IMG/VR virus record: IMGVR_UViG_3300042731_009635
Location: 1 to 36,903 of that record
Length of the DNA stretch: 36,903 nt
Reading direction: 5' to 3' (one strand)
Origin: a virus
The first letter of the stretch is position 1. Every line of letters begins with the position of its first letter. Positions 6,736 through 36,903 of this stretch are shown here, one piece after another. The position numbers and the translations under genes are program-made. Below the pieces are notes generated by a model that was given only the letters and a program-made list of their open reading frames with translations, made no database searches and was not told the DNA's origin.

Positions 6736-9700
6736 ATGGCTAAAAGAACAAAATCATATGGATTAAACAATCCGCTTCAGGATGTATTTCCAAGCCCTGT
6801 AATCGCAGAAAGAGCACCTACAACAAACGATAAAAGATATGAAATAGGGCAGGACTGGATAGACACTTCCACAAACAAGTCGTACAAATTAACTTCTGTT
6901 GTGAGCGGGAGTGCAACATGGGCAGTTACAGGACCAGGCGACTCAGAAATAAATACTTTGACAGGTGACACTGGAGGGGCTATTTCCCCTACCGCAAGCA
7001 ATATTAATATTCTAGGAGGAGATACAACACAAGTCGATGGATCTGGAAGTACGTTAACTATTAATGCGTCTGCTTCTGGTTATCCAATTACACCATATAT
7101 AGTTGGGCCAGCTAGCTCTGCCGGATATACAACTATTCAATCAGCTTTAGATGCCGCTAATGCTGCTGGAATAGATGCAACAATTTATGTACAACCCGGG
7201 ACTTACTCAGAAAATTTAACTCTTTATGATGGAGTCGATATAGTTGGTTCTATTTATCCTGGAGTTACTATTGTAGGCCTCCATACTCCCCCTACAAGTG
7301 GGCGATTCCAGTTTCAAAATATCACTATTCAGTCAGCAACAGATATTTTTAATAGTGCAGCTGCAGGGGCTACAAATATTAGTGTAATAAATAGTCAAAT
7401 AAATATAACAAATGGTTTTTTATTTAACCTTTCCAACTGGACAGGGACATTAATGGTAAAAAATTGTGATTCCTCTAGTACTAACGATGGTATTATGACA
7501 AATACAGGAGGAGCGTCCCTAACAATTTACAATAGTAGGTTAGGGAATGGAACAGCTAAAACCCTAATTAGTTCTGGGAATATTAATATAGAACATGCAG
7601 TAATTAGTTGCCCAATAGATTTTCAGACAGGAACCGTTATTGACATCAAAAGTACGGAGTTTGAACAATCTGTTTCATCTTCTAATAACGCTACAGGTAA
7701 TTGTTTTAATTGTGTATTTTCTACAGGAAGCACAACTGCATTTACGATGAATTCTACACAAGACATAGGATTAATTCATTGTATAATAGATAGCTCAGGG
7801 AGTCCTGTAGTAGCGGGGACTGGCACAGGGACTCTTTCTTTGCCTAGCATGACTTATTTAACAAATGCCGATTTATCTACTGATTTAACGATCCTTTATA
7901 CTAGACATGTGGGGATAACTAGCCCCTATGTAGTAGGAGCAAATGTTGTTGATCAAGGAATCGGAAATTTTGCTACTGTTCAAGAAGTTATTACAACATT
8001 AAATAAATATTTTGGGCCTAAATTTATATACCTTTCTAATAAATTCCATACAGAAAATATTGATTTTAGAGGTGGTGCTTACAGTCAAGATTTACATATT
8101 TTTGGCTTAGCTATTGATAGCCAAAGTGGCTTTGATGGAGTGGCTTTACAAGGCACCCACATTGCCCCGCCTATGGGGAAACTATCTTTTCAAAATATAA
8201 ATTTTATGACAGTTAGTGGAGATGTTTTCTCTGGATCAACAGCTACTACAACGGAATTTATTTTTAAAGATTGTAATATCAATCCAATTAATGGGTATTT
8301 AATTAATTTATCTAATGCTACTGGGATAATGAAATTTTATAATTGTCTTGCTACTTCTACTGCGCAAGATAATGGTATTATTAATAATACTACAGGAGCA
8401 ACTGTTGAAATATATGATTCTCGATTAGGGAACAATTCTACTTATCCTTTTATTACTAGCGGTTCCTTAACTATGAGAAATTCCCATATAGGGAACCCTT
8501 GTGAGTTCCAAACAGGGACTGTATATGGAATAGATGATTCTCGATTTGATAATACAATAACATTAAGTAATGATAGCACAGGAAGTTTTTATAATAGTAT
8601 ATTTTCTACTGGGACAGATCCTTCTATAACTATGAACTCCAGCGGTACTAATTCATTGCTGGGATGTATCATTGATTCTAGTAATTCTCCTTCTATTACG
8701 GGGACAGGTGCAGGAACTTTTAATCTTACAGGAACACATTTTCCATCTAATTCGGACATGTCAGCGACACTAACAGTATCAGGCGCTGTAACAACATCAG
8801 CAACCTTCGAAACTGTTGATCAAGCATCAGGGCTTCAAATTTCATCAAGCGATATTGATGCGGATGGAAGTGATGCTAATATCGATATTACTATTACTCC
8901 AAAAGGGACAGGGAATCTTGTCTTAGATAGTGGAGCTTTTGAAGCAGGGGCTGGAACTGATTTAAGTATTTATTCTGCAACTGGGCAAGATATTATTATA
9001 CAAATGGGAGATGCCGCTGGAGCAAACAAGGTTTCATTTACTGATTCTACAACTGCAGAAGTGTTTGCGGTAGATTCAAACGGAGCTCTGACATTTAGTG
9101 GGCTTACAGTAACCGGAGCTTTTGCTCAAACTGGTGGGACATTTAACGTTGGGCAAGACAACGCCGCAAATGCAATTAATATCGGTGGCGGGACAACAGC
9201 TCGGGCAGTTGGGATAGCAAATTCTGCTGCTGCTCATGTTCTAACCTTAGGGAGCGCAACAGCTGCTGCTCAAACGATAGCCCAAGCGGGGACTGCTGGC
9301 ATGACACTAGATTCAACTGGCGTTCTTGAACTTAACTCTTCAGGTGCTGCTATAGGGATCGGTAATGATGCTGATGCATATGCAATTAATGTTGGGACTG
9401 GTGCTGCCGCTAGAACAGTCACAATTGGTAATGCAACCGGAGCATCTAGTGTCGTTGTAGATGTAGGTACAGGGAATGCTGATTTTGGAGTATCTGCAAC
9501 TGCTCATACTACTAGAGTCGGCTCTACCACGGGGGCATCTGACACTACAATCCAATGTGGAACTGGAGCTTTAACAGTAAATGGTGGCGGCGCAATGGAC
9601 ATTGATGCTGCTGGTCAATTACAGATTAACTCTTCTGCTTCTACGATTGATATCGGAAATGACGCTATTGCTCAAAACATGAATATAGGTACAGGAGCCG

Positions 9701-10905
9701 CTGCTAGAATAATTACTATTGGTAATGTTACTGGGGCTTCTCAAGTTGTAATAGATTGCGGAACAGCTGGTGTGTCAATAGGAGCTTCTGCTACTGCTCA
9801 TACATCTACTTTAGGATCAACAACTGGCGCTTCTGATACAACTGTTCAATGTGGGACTGGAGCTTTGACAGTAAATGGTGGTGGAGCAATGGATATTGAT
9901 GCTGCTGGTCAATTACAGATTAACTCTTCTGCTTCTACAATAGATATCGGTAATGATGCAGTTGCCCAAAACATGAATATCGGTACTGGTGCTGCTGCTA
10001 GAACAATTACTGTAGGTAATAATACTGGCGCTACTAGTGTTGTTGTAGATGTTGGTACTGGAGCTGCTTCATTTGGTGCAACAGCAACAGCTCATACAAC
10101 TACTATTGGTTCAACTACTGGTGCAGCGGCAACAGTTATTCAAGCAGGTACTGGTGAAATCACTATGACAGGTACTGTTAAACAAATTGACGCAGAACTT
10201 GTCGGATGGAGTGGAGTTTATGTCCCAGCCTTTACAATGGATTCAGTAGCAGTTCTTGGAACTAATGCAGGGGGCGCCCCTGTTGGAACTACAGGAGCTG
10301 TCAATAATGTTGCTATTCAAGGTGGCTCTATTATGCAAGAATTTGTAGTAGGTGCAGGACAAACTATTATTCAGCCTATTATGGGTGCTAATGGTCTTAT
10401 TGTTAATGGAGATCAGGCAAATGCAGAAGGTTATGAATATAACTTTCCTTACTTGCAATATACAATTGGGACAAGCGCAGCTTTTGCCTTTGAACTAGGT
10501 CTCTATATCAATGATATGGACGGAGCTGCTCCTTATGTATTCGGATTTAGAAAAACCGAAGCTAATAATGCAGCTTGGGCTAACTATACAGACTATGCAA
10601 CAATGGGAATGATTGCAGCTTCTTCTATCGTTAATATTGTGACAGCTACTGAACTAAATAGCGGTGGTCAAACTGTTACTGATACTACAGATGCTTGGGG
10701 TGGTGATGGCTCTACCAATACTCTTAGAGTTCTTGTAGATGCTTCAGGAAATGTAACTTATACAATTAATGGAGCGGCTCCTACTGCTTCTGTCGCATTC
10801 CAATTTGATAATGCTGATGTTGTGATACCTTTCATTAGGATTGAGCACAATGCAAATGCTACAGATGTTGCAATTAGTTCTATGAGAATAGGCTATCAAG
10901 CTTAA
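6736..10905 (+). CDS. Large beta-helical tail fibre/receptor-binding protein
   Basis: This 1389-residue protein is the biggest in the genome. After a short N-terminus that may dock to the tail come two diverged pectin-lyase-like beta-helix modules (about residues 113-390 and 395-675), sharing PTSG/PPMG, NGYL(I/F)NLSN, FQTGTV and IIDSSxSP landmarks. Residues about 795-1145 are Gly/Ala/Thr-rich near-exact repeats with a 98-residue period (GTGAAARTITIGN and similar). The last ~240 residues (from about 1146) form a non-repetitive, aromatic-rich beta domain, likely the receptor-binding tip. The gene product at 11608 carries a third copy of the beta-helix module. It stands alone after a promoter-sized gap and ends before a strong terminator. 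Confidence 0.8.
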   Translation: MAKRTKSYGLNNPLQDVFPSPVIAERAPTTNDKRYEIGQDWIDTSTNKSYKLTSVVSGSATWAVTGPGDSEINTLTGDTGGAISPTASNINILGGDTTQVDGSGSTLTINASASGYPITPYIVGPASSAGYTTIQSALDAANAAGIDATIYVQPGTYSENLTLYDGVDIVGSIYPGVTIVGLHTPPTSGRFQFQNITIQSATDIFNSAAAGATNISVINSQINITNGFLFNLSNWTGTLMVKNCDSSSTNDGIMTNTGGASLTIYNSRLGNGTAKTLISSGNINIEHAVISCPIDFQTGTVIDIKSTEFEQSVSSSNNATGNCFNCVFSTGSTTAFTMNSTQDIGLIHCIIDSSGSPVVAGTGTGTLSLPSMTYLTNADLSTDLTILYTRHVGITSPYVVGANVVDQGIGNFATVQEVITTLNKYFGPKFIYLSNKFHTENIDFRGGAYSQDLHIFGLAIDSQSGFDGVALQGTHIAPPMGKLSFQNINFMTVSGDVFSGSTATTTEFIFKDCNINPINGYLINLSNATGIMKFYNCLATSTAQDNGIINNTTGATVEIYDSRLGNNSTYPFITSGSLTMRNSHIGNPCEFQTGTVYGIDDSRFDNTITLSNDSTGSFYNSIFSTGTDPSITMNSSGTNSLLGCIIDSSNSPSITGTGAGTFNLTGTHFPSNSDMSATLTVSGAVTTSATFETVDQASGLQISSSDIDADGSDANIDITITPKGTGNLVLDSGAFEAGAGTDLSIYSATGQDIIIQMGDAAGANKVSFTDSTTAEVFAVDSNGALTFSGLTVTGAFAQTGGTFNVGQDNAANAINIGGGTTARAVGIANSAAAHVLTLGSATAAAQTIAQAGTAGMTLDSTGVLELNSSGAAIGIGNDADAYAINVGTGAAARTVTIGNATGASSVVVDVGTGNADFGVSATAHTTRVGSTTGASDTTIQCGTGALTVNGGGAMDIDAAGQLQINSSASTIDIGNDAIAQNMNIGTGAAARIITIGNVTGASQVVIDCGTAGVSIGASATAHTSTLGSTTGASDTTVQCGTGALTVNGGGAMDIDAAGQLQINSSASTIDIGNDAVAQNMNIGTGAAARTITVGNNTGATSVVVDVGTGAASFGATATAHTTTIGSTTGAAATVIQAGTGEITMTGTVKQIDAELVGWSGVYVPAFTMDSVAVLGTNAGGAPVGTTGAVNNVAIQGGSIMQEFVVGAGQTIIQPIMGANGLIVNGDQANAEGYEYNFPYLQYTIGTSAAFAFELGLYINDMDGAAPYVFGFRKTEANNAAWANYTDYATMGMIAASSIVNIVTATELNSGGQTVTDTTDAWGGDGSTNTLRVLVDASGNVTYTINGAAPTASVAFQFDNADVVIPFIRIEHNANATDVAISSMRIGYQA
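9361..10160 (+). repeat. Tandem 294-bp repeats within the fibre gene
   Basis: The GGTAATGA-type motif that opens each unit falls at 9361, 9655 and 9949, a spacing of exactly 294 bp (98 codons). The second and third units are nearly identical in DNA, for example around 9595 and 9889. The array stays in frame and encodes the stalk of the fibre, so recombination between units would shorten or lengthen it without breaking the gene. Confidence 0.85.
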
Positions 10906-11263: not shown

Positions 11264-11608
11264 ATGGCGTTTGGAACTCAAGTTACTTTTGATTCAATAA
11301 GAGAAAAAGCAGCCGGTGATATTTCTAGTTCTTATGTAGCAATTGGGACTCCAATTTCAGATTATGTAAGAATAATAACAATTAGTAATTCTACTGATCA
11401 AGAAGTTTATATTTCTTTTAATGGGACAGATAATCATCTTAGACTTGCTCAGAATTCCTTTAAATTATTAGATCTTTCTGCAAATAAAATAAGAGAAGAT
11501 GGTCTTTTTTTAGCTGTAGGGACTCAGCTTTATGTAAAGTATGTAAGTACTACTACTTCTTCTGGGGACGTTTGGGTAGAAGTCATGTATGCTGAAGGAG
11601 GAAAATAA
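11264..11608 (+). CDS. Small beta-rich structural protein
   Basis: This 114-residue all-beta protein contains ISNSTDQEVYISFNGTDNH and an FKLLDLSANK segment. The pattern is that of small baseplate/fibre-linked or head-decoration proteins seen repeatedly beside phage fibre genes. The start follows an AATAGGTAAAAT SD-like stretch and the last base of its stop is the first base of the next ATG. A role as connector for the fibre encoded downstream is inferred. Confidence 0.55.
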   Translation: MAFGTQVTFDSIREKAAGDISSSYVAIGTPISDYVRIITISNSTDQEVYISFNGTDNHLRLAQNSFKLLDLSANKIREDGLFLAVGTQLYVKYVSTTTSSGDVWVEVMYAEGGK

Positions 11609-13257
11609 TGTCTCAGCAAGGAAGATTAATTGACCAAGATTTAGAGACATTAGAAGGAGATACTGGGGGGCCTGTTTCTCCAGATGGCAGTGGTAATATA
11701 AATGTTATTGGTGGAAGTGGAACTGTTACTGTCACAGGAAATCCAGGAACTCATACATTAACTATTGAAACCTCTAATGATGGTTATCCAATTACTCCTT
11801 ATGTAGTCGGAGCAGCAGGAATTGCAGGATATCAGACTGTTCAATCAGCTATTAATGCTGCACAAGCATTAGGATCTGATGCAACTATCTATATACAACC
11901 AGGGACATATACAGAAGATTTAACACTATATGATGGGATTGATATTGTGGGGTCTATCTATACAGGGACAACGATTGTTGGTACTCATACACCTCCAACA
12001 AGCGGAAATGTACAATTTCAAGATATTACACTAGAATCAGCCACTCACGTTTTCAATAGCGCTGCTGCGGGTACAACTAATATTAGTGTTGTAGACTGCG
12101 AAGTGAATGTAACAAACGGATATTTATTTAATCTTTTAAACTGGACAGGGACATTAGAAGTCGGCGAAACAGGATTTGTTGGAACAAACGATGGCTTTGT
12201 AAACAACACTGGGGGAGCAACAATTGTTTGTAATGCGACAGAAGTAGGTATTGGTAGTGGGAATGAGGCCATTATGAGTGGTACTCTTATATTATATAAT
12301 ACTTATTTTCTTTGTCCTATTGATTTCCAAACCGGTTCTGACATAAAAGCGGACGGTTGTCGCTTTGAACAGACTGTAACACTAAGTAATAATTCTACTG
12401 GGTATTTTAGAGAATGTAACTTTGACACTGGAGCAAATTCAGCAGTTAGCCACGGTTCAAGTGCGGCTGTTTCTATATCTAATTCAACTATTGATAGTTC
12501 AAATAGTCCAGCAATAGATGGAGCTGGAGCTGGCGTGCTTACTTTGACGGGGGTAGACTTTATTGATAATACAAATATAGCCGGGACTCTAACTGTAGCT
12601 TCTGGAATAACTTATAGTGGAACTTATAAATCAGATTATACAGATCATGGGATCTTACTTGGACAAGGTTCAGTTTCAAATATAGTAGCAACAACCGCTG
12701 GTACAAATGGACAATTATTAATTGGAGCAACAGGCGCTGATCCGGCCTTTGCTTCCCTTACTTCAACTGGATCAACAATAGACTTTACTGCTGGTGCAAA
12801 TACCCTTAATCTAGAAACTTCAGGGTCAATTGCTACTACTTTTAATGCAGATACAGGGAGTGCTACTCCATCATTAGGAGTTTTAACTGTTACAGGATCA
12901 AAAGGAATTACAACATCAGCTACAGGAAGTACTATTACTATAATTGGCAGTGGAGAAAAAGAAATAGATATTACTTCTCTTTCTGATGCAGACTCTCCAT
13001 ATACAGTTTTGAGTACTGATTATTATATGAGTTGCGATGTTTCTTTAGGAGTTTTAACAATAAATCTTCCAGATGCTCCAACAACAGGTAGAGTTTATAT
13101 TGTAAAAGATTCTGGTGGAGATGCTAATACAAATAATATAACAGTTACAACTGTAAGTGGTGTAGTCACAATTGACGGATCTATTTCACGAGTAATGTCA
13201 ACTGACTATGAGAATTTACAATTTGTTTTTAATGGAACATCATATGAGGTATTTTAA
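11608..13257 (+). CDS. Second beta-helix tail fibre protein
   Basis: A 549-residue paralogue of the N-terminal half of the large fibre: residues about 50-350 repeat the same beta-helix module (YPITPYVVG, SAINAA, IYIQPGTYTEDLTLYDG, PPTSG, NGYLFNLLNWTG, FQTGSD). The C-terminus is a different, shorter beta domain (DADSPYTVLSTDYYMSCDV) of a type common at the ends of phage fibres. It overlaps the next gene by one base (TAATG). It probably forms a shorter or accessory fibre. The shared module implies duplication or domain shuffling between the fibre genes. Confidence 0.75.
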   Translation: MSQQGRLIDQDLETLEGDTGGPVSPDGSGNINVIGGSGTVTVTGNPGTHTLTIETSNDGYPITPYVVGAAGIAGYQTVQSAINAAQALGSDATIYIQPGTYTEDLTLYDGIDIVGSIYTGTTIVGTHTPPTSGNVQFQDITLESATHVFNSAAAGTTNISVVDCEVNVTNGYLFNLLNWTGTLEVGETGFVGTNDGFVNNTGGATIVCNATEVGIGSGNEAIMSGTLILYNTYFLCPIDFQTGSDIKADGCRFEQTVTLSNNSTGYFRECNFDTGANSAVSHGSSAAVSISNSTIDSSNSPAIDGAGAGVLTLTGVDFIDNTNIAGTLTVASGITYSGTYKSDYTDHGILLGQGSVSNIVATTAGTNGQLLIGATGADPAFASLTSTGSTIDFTAGANTLNLETSGSIATTFNADTGSATPSLGVLTVTGSKGITTSATGSTITIIGSGEKEIDITSLSDADSPYTVLSTDYYMSCDVSLGVLTINLPDAPTTGRVYIVKDSGGDANTNNITVTTVSGVVTIDGSISRVMSTDYENLQFVFNGTSYEVF

Positions 13258-28616: not shown

Positions 28617-28847
28617 CTATTTTATTTTTTTCCCAGGAGGAAAAGTAAAAAGAGTCCAAAAAATTTCTGGCTTTACTTCTTCTCCTCCAATTTTGAGTTT
28701 GGACTCTATATTATTATATAGGAATTGTGTCATCTTCCCTATAGATGGCATGGAAATATGTGGGATTTCCACGCCCGGCCAATACACAGCGAGAATTATC
28801 CATTTATCATCTGGAAAATTTTCCCCGTTAAATTTATTCCAATTCAT
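28617..28847 (-). CDS. DUF551-like small protein (MNWNKFN)
   Basis: A 76-residue protein: MNWNKFNGENFPDDKWIILA, with VYWPGVEIPH, and EIFWTLFTFPPGKK at the end. A paralogue of the following MNWNK protein. Its ATG overlaps the recombinase stop by four bases, with AGGAAG upstream, so it is co-translated with the recombinase. No function known for the family. Confidence 0.55.
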   Translation of the reverse strand: MNWNKFNGENFPDDKWIILAVYWPGVEIPHISMPSIGKMTQFLYNNIESKLKIGGEEVKPEIFWTLFTFPPGKKIK

Positions 28848-29401
28848 CTTCCTTCCTTATTTAAATAATTGTACAAAGTTACTTTGCATATATTATACAT
28901 CAAGCATAATTCTTTTATAGTTAATCTTTTTTCTTCATATAGTTGTTTCATTCTATTTATTTTTTCAGATGTCATTTTCCGAGGCCTACCAACATGTTTC
29001 CCTCTTTTCCTAGCCCCTTCAAGTCCTTGCCTTATTCTTTCTAAATTGCGCATGCGTTCATTTTCAGCTATCATTGCCATAAAATTAAAAACCATTTTTC
29101 CATGGGCCGTTCTTGTGTCTATATCGTATCCAAGAATAACAAGATTGATCTCTTTTTTATGGAAATCTTCAAGAAGAATAGCTAGATCTTTTGTTGATCT
29201 TCCCAGACGATCTATTCCAGTAACCATTACTGTATCGTTTTTTCTAAGTATTGTCATTAATTTTTCGAAGTGTACTTTTTTTGAATTGTATCCTGAAATG
29301 ATATCAGAATATATTTTTTCACAGCCAGCATCTACTAAAAGAGCTACTTGATTCTCTAGTGATTGTTTAGGTGTTGATATTCTTGCGTATCCGAATTTCA
29401 T
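28844..29401 (-). CDS. Small serine recombinase (resolvase/invertase type)
   Basis: This 185-residue enzyme has the full resolvase/invertase layout: FGYARIS with catalytic Ser9 (and Arg7), DRLGRS at residues 64-69, the ENERMRNLERIRQGLEGARKR long helix region, and a C-terminal helix-turn-helix (about 140-182, INRMKQLYEEKRLTIKELC...TLYNYL). It cuts and rejoins DNA through a Ser-DNA link. In a genome without a recognisable integrase it could resolve dimers of a circular replicon or invert/shuffle segments. It lacks the large C-terminal domain of phage serine integrases. The start overlaps the end of the broken upstream gene. Confidence 0.9.
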   Translation of the reverse strand: MKFGYARISTPKQSLENQVALLVDAGCEKIYSDIISGYNSKKVHFEKLMTILRKNDTVMVTGIDRLGRSTKDLAILLEDFHKKEINLVILGYDIDTRTAHGKMVFNFMAMIAENERMRNLERIRQGLEGARKRGKHVGRPRKMTSEKINRMKQLYEEKRLTIKELCLMYNICKVTLYNYLNKEGR

Positions 29402-32547: not shown

Positions 32548-34210
32548 ATGACTACAACCACAACTACGCTTCCAGCACCAGTTCAACAAAGCTTTAGTTA
32601 TAAACTACTTAGCGTGCCGGTCCCGTATATGATTCATAATATTCCTGCGATGCTAAAACAAATGCCACGAAATGGTGGTACCACTCTTAGAATGCGCAGG
32701 TATAATCCTTTGGCAACAGCTACTGTTCCATTGGGTAATAGTGGAGTTACTCCTCCACCACAACAGCTAACTGCAGTAAACATAGACGCAGAGCTAGATT
32801 TCTACGGAACGTATCTCATTTTGAATGAACAAGTTACGCTCCAGAATCAAGACCCTGTTCTAAATGAGGCTGCCCAACGGCTCGGCGTGAGTTTGAGGCA
32901 AACAGAAGACGAGCTCACAAGAGACATGCTTTTGTCAACAGCTTCATTTATTAATTGTGTTGGCGGAACAAACGGTAGAAAATATGTTGCCGTTTTAAAA
33001 TCTCTTCTGATGGACTTGAAACTCTTAACAGGTAAAGCTGAAGACAACAAGGCGGAACAAATTAACAACCACGGAGGTTTAGTTGAGTCATTTGATTTAC
33101 GTAAAGCTGCCTAAGCTCCAAAGTTTCTTTGGATACAGGTCTTTCGCGTTTTTCGAAAGTCTTTCTAAATTTTATGGCAAGTTCACATCTTTCTTTTTTA
33201 ATTATCAGAAAGGGGTGAATTTCCTTAAGGAAATTCAACATATTTGGACGGTCAATAACCCACAAAAAAGATTGTTTCCAGTGATTTTTTCTACTGGGAG
33301 CATTATTAGTGTAAGTATAGCCACCAAAATTGGAATAAATCCAATCAATAAGTATTTTGTCGGTAGAAGAAATGTAGACTCGAAGGTTGTATTTACCTCG
33401 AATATTATTAGGAGCTTTATTAGACCAAAGAACGATACTACCTTCTCCATCCAAAATACCAGCCAAATATATAAGTTTTTCTCTACGTGTTTTAAACATA
33501 AGTCTCCTATGTCGAAGTCAAACTATAACAATTTGAACGATATGGAGCAAGTTAATTTGACCGTGAACGTAGCAAGCGAAGAGACATGGGAAACCATGAA
33601 GCGGTGCTCTGGGCTCTATGGAAACATAGAGAGGTAGACTGAGAAGATCTACCCGCTTAATTAAAATATAATTAAGTCAATAAGTAACAGATAGGACAAT
33701 CCTACAGAAATAACACGTTCTGATATTGACGGTGTTATTCGCACATTAGCAGATAATAACGCCTATACTATTGCTGACAATATTGAAGGTGAAGACCGAT
33801 TTGGTACAGCACCTGTTAGAGATGCTTATTTTGCTCTTGGTTCTACCCAACTTATTGGGGATCTAGAACAAGTCCAAGGTTTTATTGCTAAAGCTCAATA
33901 TCCTTCTCAAATGTCTACTCTAAGGCCTGAATGGGGTTCTGTTTCAAATCTTAGATTTTTACTTTCTAGTATTGGGGCTGAAGAAAGTTCAGCATCTGCC
34001 TTAGGAAATAATATGTACGATATTTTTTGCGTAGGAATGGAAGCTTATGCCGTTATTGAACAAGACGGTTATAGCTCTCAATTTATTTATAGACCCCCTA
34101 TTTATGATGGGCCACTCGCCTTGAATGCAAGTGTTGGATATAAATTCGCTCAAGTTCCAAGAATCACCAATGATGCTTGGGTATTAAATCTATCATGCAC
34201 ATTGTCATAA
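32548..34210 (+). CDS. Major capsid protein, N4-gp56 type, split by a group I intron (join 32548-32976, 33695-34210)
   Basis: Joining the two exons gives 314 residues. Exon 1 (143 codons) has the N4-gp56-type start: SYKLLSVPVPYMIHNIPAML..., GGTTLRMRRYNPLATATVPL, and the LTAVNIDAELDFYGTYLILNEQV strand. Exon 2 (from DNPTEITRSDIDGVIRTLADN) continues with APVRDAYFALGSTQLIGDL, MSTLRPEWGSVSNLRFL and a C-terminal PRITNDAWVLNLSCTLS. The splice site falls between GGT (Gly) and GAC (Asp) and keeps the frame. Without splicing, the reading ends at 33114 after 45 intron-encoded residues, giving an incomplete protein. The scaffold lies upstream and a structural gene downstream. Confidence 0.88.
33062..33499 (-). 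CDS. LAGLIDADG homing endonuclease, antisense in the capsid intron
   Basis: A 145-residue protein with one LAGLIDADG motif at residues 12-20 (YLAGILDGEGSI), followed by LRVYISSTDKILIDWIYSNFGG and FLKEIHPFLIIKKERC, the usual order of single-motif enzymes that act as homodimers. They cut the intronless allele so that repair copies the intron. The gene is on the strand opposite to the capsid message, with its own AGGAG SD four bases before the ATG. Its 3' end overlaps the P3-P6 region of the intron on the other strand. A candidate promoter lies at 33522-33550. Confidence 0.9.
   Translation of the reverse strand: MFKTRREKLIYLAGILDGEGSIVLWSNKAPNNIRGKYNLRVYISSTDKILIDWIYSNFGGYTYTNNAPSRKNHWKQSFLWVIDRPNMLNFLKEIHPFLIIKKERCELAIKFRKTFEKRERPVSKETLELRQLYVNQMTQLNLRGC
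33522..33550 (-). promoter_or_regulatory. Candidate promoter for the antisense homing endonuclease
   Basis: Minus strand: TTGCTC (33550-33545), 17-base spacer, TATAGT (33527-33522), 22 bases before the endonuclease ATG. The -35 box lies on the same bases as the 5' strand of intron helix P7. The match is moderate and the DNA AT-rich. Confidence 0.4.
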
Positions 34211-36639: not shown

Positions 36640-36839
36640 ATGGCTTATAATGAAAATATTCCTCAAGCAACAGATAATCCCTCCCAAAGTCAGCCTCAAC
36701 TTTTGGCTAATTTTCAGGAAATAAATACTGCTTTTAATTTAAATCATGCAGATTTTAATACAGCAGATCAAGGGAAACACTCTTTTTTACAAATGCCTGA
36801 ACAAACATCTGCGCCTGCTACTGCAGCAGACGAAGGAGC
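36640..36839 (+). CDS. Tail/fibre protein, N-terminal part (gene continues at position 71)
   Basis: Start at ATG 36640, one base after the adaptor stop. The frame reads MAYNENIPQATDNPSQSQPQ, then LLANFQEINTAFNLNHADFN and QGKHSFLQ. The phrase SQSQPQLL.NFQ.I..AF..NH..F....QGKH is a recurring N-terminal motif of small podophage tail/neck proteins. The true gene leaves the contig at 36839 and resumes at 71, ending at 452. The frame seen after 36839 is an inverted copy of upstream bases and not part of the gene. Confidence 0.8.
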
Positions 36840-36903
36840 AGGCGCAGATGTTTGTTCAGGCATTTGTAAAAAAGAGTGTTTCCCTTGATCTGCTGTATTA
36901 AAA
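36753..36903. repeat. 67-bp perfect inverted repeat at the contig end
   Basis: 36753-36819 and 36837-36903 are exact reverse complements with a 17-base spacer. The right arm breaks the tail gene, and the junction lies at an AGCA/TGCT microhomology. This is the signature of a fold-back chimera made during amplification or sequencing. A hairpin telomere is a less likely explanation. Confidence 0.85.

Follow-up and report, generated by a model that had tools for sequence, protein, structure and literature searches.

The stretch of viral DNA analyzed here, referred to in its entire 36,903-nt length as the window, carries on its plus strand a tailed-phage major capsid gene divided into 2 exons, which encode residues 1–143 (positions 32548–32976) and 144–314 (33695–34210), lie in one frame, and are separated by an insert of 718 nt (32977–33694). 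As proposed in the preliminary description of this DNA, removal of the insert restores the capsid frame: joining U32976 to G33695 in silico yields an uninterrupted open reading frame (ORF) of 314 amino acids (aa), and the exons match consecutive stretches of the phrog_1357 (major head protein) profile, positions 23–161 for exon 1 (E = 1.1e-13) and 178–303 for exon 2 (E = 2.3e-9). Without splicing, the capsid ORF stops at residue 188, inside the insert. An uninterrupted capsid protein, up to 92% identical to the predicted spliced product, is encoded by approximately 60 related viral contigs, and comparison with these homologs agreed exactly with the proposed junction, which reads ...TNG↓D(N/S)P..., with no added residues, in 17 of the 17 intronless relatives inspected.

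The insert folds into the complete core of a group I intron, and a contig from another virus (L081) contains a second copy at the identical capsid site, which allowed individual helices to be compared. At the 5′ splice site, the exon sequence AAACGGU (32970–32976) pairs with the IGS at 32989–32995 to form a P1 of 7 bp with a terminal U.G, the strand UGUU (32985–32988) forms the 4 pairs of P10 with GACA of exon 2 (33695–33698), and the conserved 3′ end recognized in the family alignment, AAGUAACAG..G (33682–33694), terminates in G33694; these elements agree with those of the preliminary description. Between them, every helix of the P3–P8 and P4–P6 core, including the P3–P7 pseudoknot, was located on the plus strand. 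The 5′ strand of P3 (33001–33007) pairs with 33578–33584 (UCUCUUC/GAAGAGA), CUUG of P4 (33015–33018) pairs with 33048–33051, and P5 is formed by 33023–33026/33041–33044, the latter 2 helices being assigned from the sequence and family comparison. The 5′ side of P6/P6a (GCGG, CAAAUUAAC; 33052–33066) pairs with 33551–33564. P7 (33569–33574/33605–33609, within 33569–33609) and P8 (33585–33589/33594–33598) follow, the former placed by the model match described below together with sequence reading, whereas P9 (33614–33620/33625–33631), P9.1 (33633–33638/33648–33653), and P9.2 (33656–33662/33670–33676) are placed by the family alignment and the same model match. Two helices reported earlier stood with altered dimensions: P3 comprises 7 contiguous bp instead of 9, and P7 comprises 5 pairs and an additional bulged U instead of 6 bp. 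The guanosine-binding pair G33569–C33609 in P7 can form with this added bulge and is canonical in relatives. Our first assignment of P7, AGAG/CUCU, was dropped, its pairing being broken in L081.

Several comparative results bear on this fold. From 7 introns of other viruses, with the window and L081 left out, we built a covariance model that covers the core's 3′ half; it produced a single match in the 36.9-kb window (33558–33690, plus strand; 63.6 bits, E = 1.4e-15) and recovered the introns in the other interrupted capsid loci. Intact capsid genes gave no strong match to this model (best score, 17 bits), barring L017, L063, and L069, where model matches place the intron (in L069, the one at the downstream site) outside the aligned part of the capsid gene. 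In the family alignment, 16 of the 28 stem pairs covary. The P3 strands of 78 family introns match their own partners better than shuffled ones (15.2 versus 10.4 on average after shuffling, sd 0.27), and P3 changes in a compensatory manner from UCUCUUC/GAAGAGA in the window to UCUUUUC/GAAAAGA in L081, as do P8 and P9.1. Taken together, the full core, the covariance-model match, and the exact empty-site alleles uphold the group I intron and splice site originally predicted; the evidence for the RNA core is strong, and excision of the intron is the predicted consequence. The suggested Infernal search with the general Rfam group I model did not report the intron. At gathering and relaxed thresholds, Rfam searches returned only chance matches in the window and no credible ones in relatives, and RF00028, run on whole records, had no match in the window and one subthreshold match in a relative (17.3 bits, E = 2.3e-4). 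The RF00028 miss reflects a single search model and is not a defining biological feature.

The lack of an above-threshold score with the general model and the extra bulge in P7 do lend some weight to the idea that the intron depends on a protein for splicing, either a host or phage factor or its own endonuclease acting as a maturase. Group I introns from phages and bacteria may require cofactors, and a LAGLIDADG maturase is listed in Thermotoga (reviewed in PMC3984707). Yet the core helices are all present and covarying, and an antisense gene whose expression is separate from that of the intron would make an awkward maturase, so that we consider protein dependence unlikely and favor a self-splicing intron.

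The loop of P6 (L6) accommodates, on the minus strand, a gene (33062–33499) for a single-motif LAGLIDADG homing endonuclease of 145 aa (motif LAGILDGEG, with the acidic residue of the LAGLIDADG helix), preceded by the Shine–Dalgarno (SD) sequence AGGAG (33508–33504), in agreement with the antisense gene with its own SD noted earlier. The family profile of the endonuclease matches I-MsoI (E = 1e-21) and I-CreI (E of about 2e-9), and the AlphaFold model (pLDDT 88), which shows the alpha–beta saddle fold, retrieves I-CreI in Foldseek (E of about 1e-8); the Pfam match for the window protein alone falls below the cut-off. Relative to its L081 counterpart, the gene shows dN of 0.057 and dS of 0.536 (dN/dS of about 0.11), and 36 of the 53 nucleotide differences fall on its own third codon positions, which identifies the minus strand as the coding strand. 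The bottom-strand ORF is thus an I-CreI-type LAGLIDADG endonuclease evolving under purifying selection and predicted to be active. Two competing annotations of the region were discarded: the PHROGs label “HNH endonuclease” for 33062–33499 is wrong by both profile and fold, and differences from L081 fall on the first codon positions of the 184-aa sense-strand ORF at 33083–33637.

Upstream of the endonuclease gene, on the same strand, lies a probable promoter, TTGCTC-17-TATAGT (33522–33550), whose −10 element is TATAAT in L081. The match is modest, and a generic promoter scan made no call at this position, for which it is too weak. Across the family, regions upstream of 58 antisense genes score 9.0 for a sigma-70-like promoter versus 7.5 for dinucleotide shuffles (standard error of the difference, 0.2), an enrichment to which AT-rich spacing could partly contribute, and an SD-like site precedes 42 of 57 antisense endonuclease genes.

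Comparison of the 2 copies also sheds light on how the intron may have spread. Between the window and L081, the DNA of the endonuclease gene differs at 53 of 438 nt (88% identity) and the intron hardly varies in its first part, whereas the flanking exons are only 77% and 71% identical, which suggests that the intron moved laterally between phages. This greater similarity of intron DNA than of host genes is accompanied by a patchy distribution and 17 exact empty alleles, features of mobile introns. The same data bear on the possibility that the capsid gene was merely broken by insertion of a free-standing LAGLIDADG gene, or that the locus is an assembly chimera. The unspliced ORF does end within the insert, and the window ends carry an inverted self-repeat of the type seen in assembly artefacts; nevertheless, an independent contig has a copy at the same site with compensatory RNA changes, the RNA core matches the covariance model, both exons are intact and in frame, and relatives contain dozens of analogous introns, all of which renders this explanation highly improbable. 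Even less credible, to the point of being negligible, is that the insert is an intein, an in-frame insertion, or a segment skipped by ribosome bypassing: nothing but its location inside an ORF speaks for it, and it contains capsid-frame stops, encodes the endonuclease on the opposite strand, and conserves RNA structure.

We conclude with high confidence that the major capsid gene of this tailed phage is interrupted by a mobile group I intron, which carries an antisense I-CreI-type endonuclease gene in its P6 loop. According to this model, the capsid transcript would fold into the P1–P10/P3–P9 ribozyme, a guanosine-dependent cut after U32976 would be followed by attack after G33694, and the exons would be joined. 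The endonuclease, probably expressed from its own promoter and ribosome site independently of capsid transcription, would target capsid genes without the intron in co-infecting phages, cleaving them near codon 143, and the intron would be copied in during repair.

To place the window intron among its kin, relatives were fetched by the capsid protein and, separately, by the endonuclease, counts derived from the latter being lower bounds. At least 130 introns were scored, including at least 110 distinct ones, of which at least 57 carry an antisense endonuclease gene, at least 12 a sense one, and at least 41 none that was detected; among the matches listed, the antisense orientation thus accounts for 57 of the 69 distinct endonuclease-bearing introns. 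Nearly all intron-containing loci fetched by the endonuclease, again among the matches listed, interrupt the same capsid family. At least 103 introns could be mapped to roughly 20 or more positions in the capsid gene, with up to 4 per gene; because each position was estimated only to within a few residues, the exact number of sites is uncertain. Among the introns placed from the matches listed, only those of the window and L081 are located at residue 143. The most extreme organization is exemplified by the minus strand of L160 (2123–4681), where 4 full group I introns together with one mini-insert divide the capsid gene into 6 exons, and in-silico splicing that follows the U↓...G↓ rule yields an intact capsid protein. 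The family also extends to annotated genomes: in the GenBank podovirus Podoviridae sp. ctn9Y15 (MW202674), the coat gene is split by a family intron and annotated as 2 coat proteins, with covariance model R1 scoring 70 bits between the 2 annotated P22 coat protein pieces (L231, 2425–2643). There, in contrast to the window, the gap between the coat pieces is roughly 220 nt and holds no annotated endonuclease. Desulfovibrio phage 7757, a large D. vulgaris phage, contains a family-model match of 57.5 bits (L230, 2495–2638) in an unannotated gene.

The larger pattern, missed in the preliminary description, is the combination of many intron sites in the capsid gene with core-less mini-inserts in relatives. 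In many relatives, though not in the window capsid gene, a short insert follows capsid residue 87 and has P1, P10, and the terminal G without a ribozyme core. A pattern scan of viral contigs detected 63 such loci, 48 of them distinct, with inserts of 28–56 nt (L165–L227, for example L183, 3475–3523, and L170, 6220–6268; also L079, 2230–2264), and 47 of the 48 distinct inserts bring in an in-frame stop. The scan pattern forced P1 and part of P10, leaving one free P10 position as the sole evidence for that helix; it is Watson–Crick in 48 of 48 cases (GC 31, AT 9, TA 5, CG 3). The tail of the mini-insert pairs with an exon segment just upstream of the next full intron; in the clear tether cases (score of at least 15), this segment ends 6–8 nt short of the 5′ splice site, and the pairing follows that intron whether it resides at residue 96, 103, 103/104, or 116. 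Tether scores average 20.6 versus 12.2 for shuffled sequences (sd 0.46), and 19.2 versus 12.9 for the residue-96 cases alone; because the sequences are related by descent, both comparisons overstate their independence. The downstream 5′ splice site was recognized by its exon motif in 47 of the 48, the contig ending in the remaining one, and full-intron model matches are present in the mini-insert loci, whose introns belong to the same capsid-associated family as that of the window. We lean toward the view that the mini-inserts are naturally evolved, dependent group I introns that have no core, are tethered by their tails, and would be excised by the ribozyme of the downstream full intron. The guide GCCGUA of the mini-inserts also occurs in full introns at about residue 87 elsewhere (e.g., L088), and they may therefore derive from such introns by loss of the core. 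Ribosome bypassing of the mini-inserts was considered and rejected: every insert ends in G, and consequently there is no GGU landing codon to match the GGU take-off codon.

Known systems provide precedents for parts of this arrangement. I-CreI and I-MsoI, which share their sequence-profile family and predicted fold with the window endonuclease, originate in chloroplast rRNA introns, whereas the window gene is antisense and lies in a phage capsid intron. The endonuclease of the Didymium iridis intron S956-2 is of the His-Cys type. This nuclear rDNA intron is likewise a group I intron with an antisense endonuclease gene (PMC3679873); its host gene, in contrast, is ribosomal DNA. The closest parallel is mycobacteriophage LittleE, in which a capsid intron carries a bottom-strand LAGLIDADG gene and RT-PCR, together with sequencing of the protein N terminus, has proven splicing (PMC3706429). 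The LittleE intron (JF937101) is also group I-like, lies in the major capsid gene, is preceded by U, and ends in G, but it represents an unrelated lineage: covariance model R1 finds no match, and its endonuclease is only 24% identical to that of the window over 78 aa. Staphylococcus phage phiSA_BS1 (Twort-like) has a 30-nt stretch nearly identical to the P4–P5 region of the window intron, but its split gene is the terminase and model R1 again has no match. Given the LittleE precedent, the window intron is of a known kind, and the contention that an antisense LAGLIDADG gene in a phage capsid gene would be unusual did not hold, such genes also being the majority in relatives. It is the setting, a capsid hotspot with mini-inserts, that is unusual, more than the window intron alone. 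Judged by the literature searched, what is new is the lineage of the intron and how densely the sites are packed; among openly accessible papers, none was found that describes capsid introns at multiple sites or group I introns lacking a core, which does not prove that such papers are absent.

The capsid protein is needed in bulk, yet its gene of roughly 940 nt can harbor up to 4 ribozyme introns and a mini-insert, making it a natural test bed for selfish introns in essential late genes. The recurrence of antisense endonuclease genes with their own promoters suggests a means of decoupling endonuclease expression from capsid transcription and splicing. If spliced by their neighbors, the mini-inserts would be a group I counterpart of the ribozyme loss through which spliceosomal and group III introns are proposed to have arisen, and the dependence of one intron on the ribozyme of another would become testable in a simple RNA system.

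A weak lead to the host comes from the only capsid relative found in the bacterial-genome collection, a 35-kb contig (L228, JANQJL010000105.1) binned in a Simkaniaceae (Chlamydiota) genome. Elsewhere in the window, the inverted self-repeat occupies 36753–36903, with 36770–36839 equal to 1–70, which points to either a terminal repeat or a palindrome created by assembly. A 185-aa ORF on the minus strand (28844–29401) reads, by sequence only, like a serine resolvase/invertase. The long ORFs at 6736–10905 and 11608–13257 contain internal repeats and paralogous segments (9332–10121 and 7050–7452/11754–12156).
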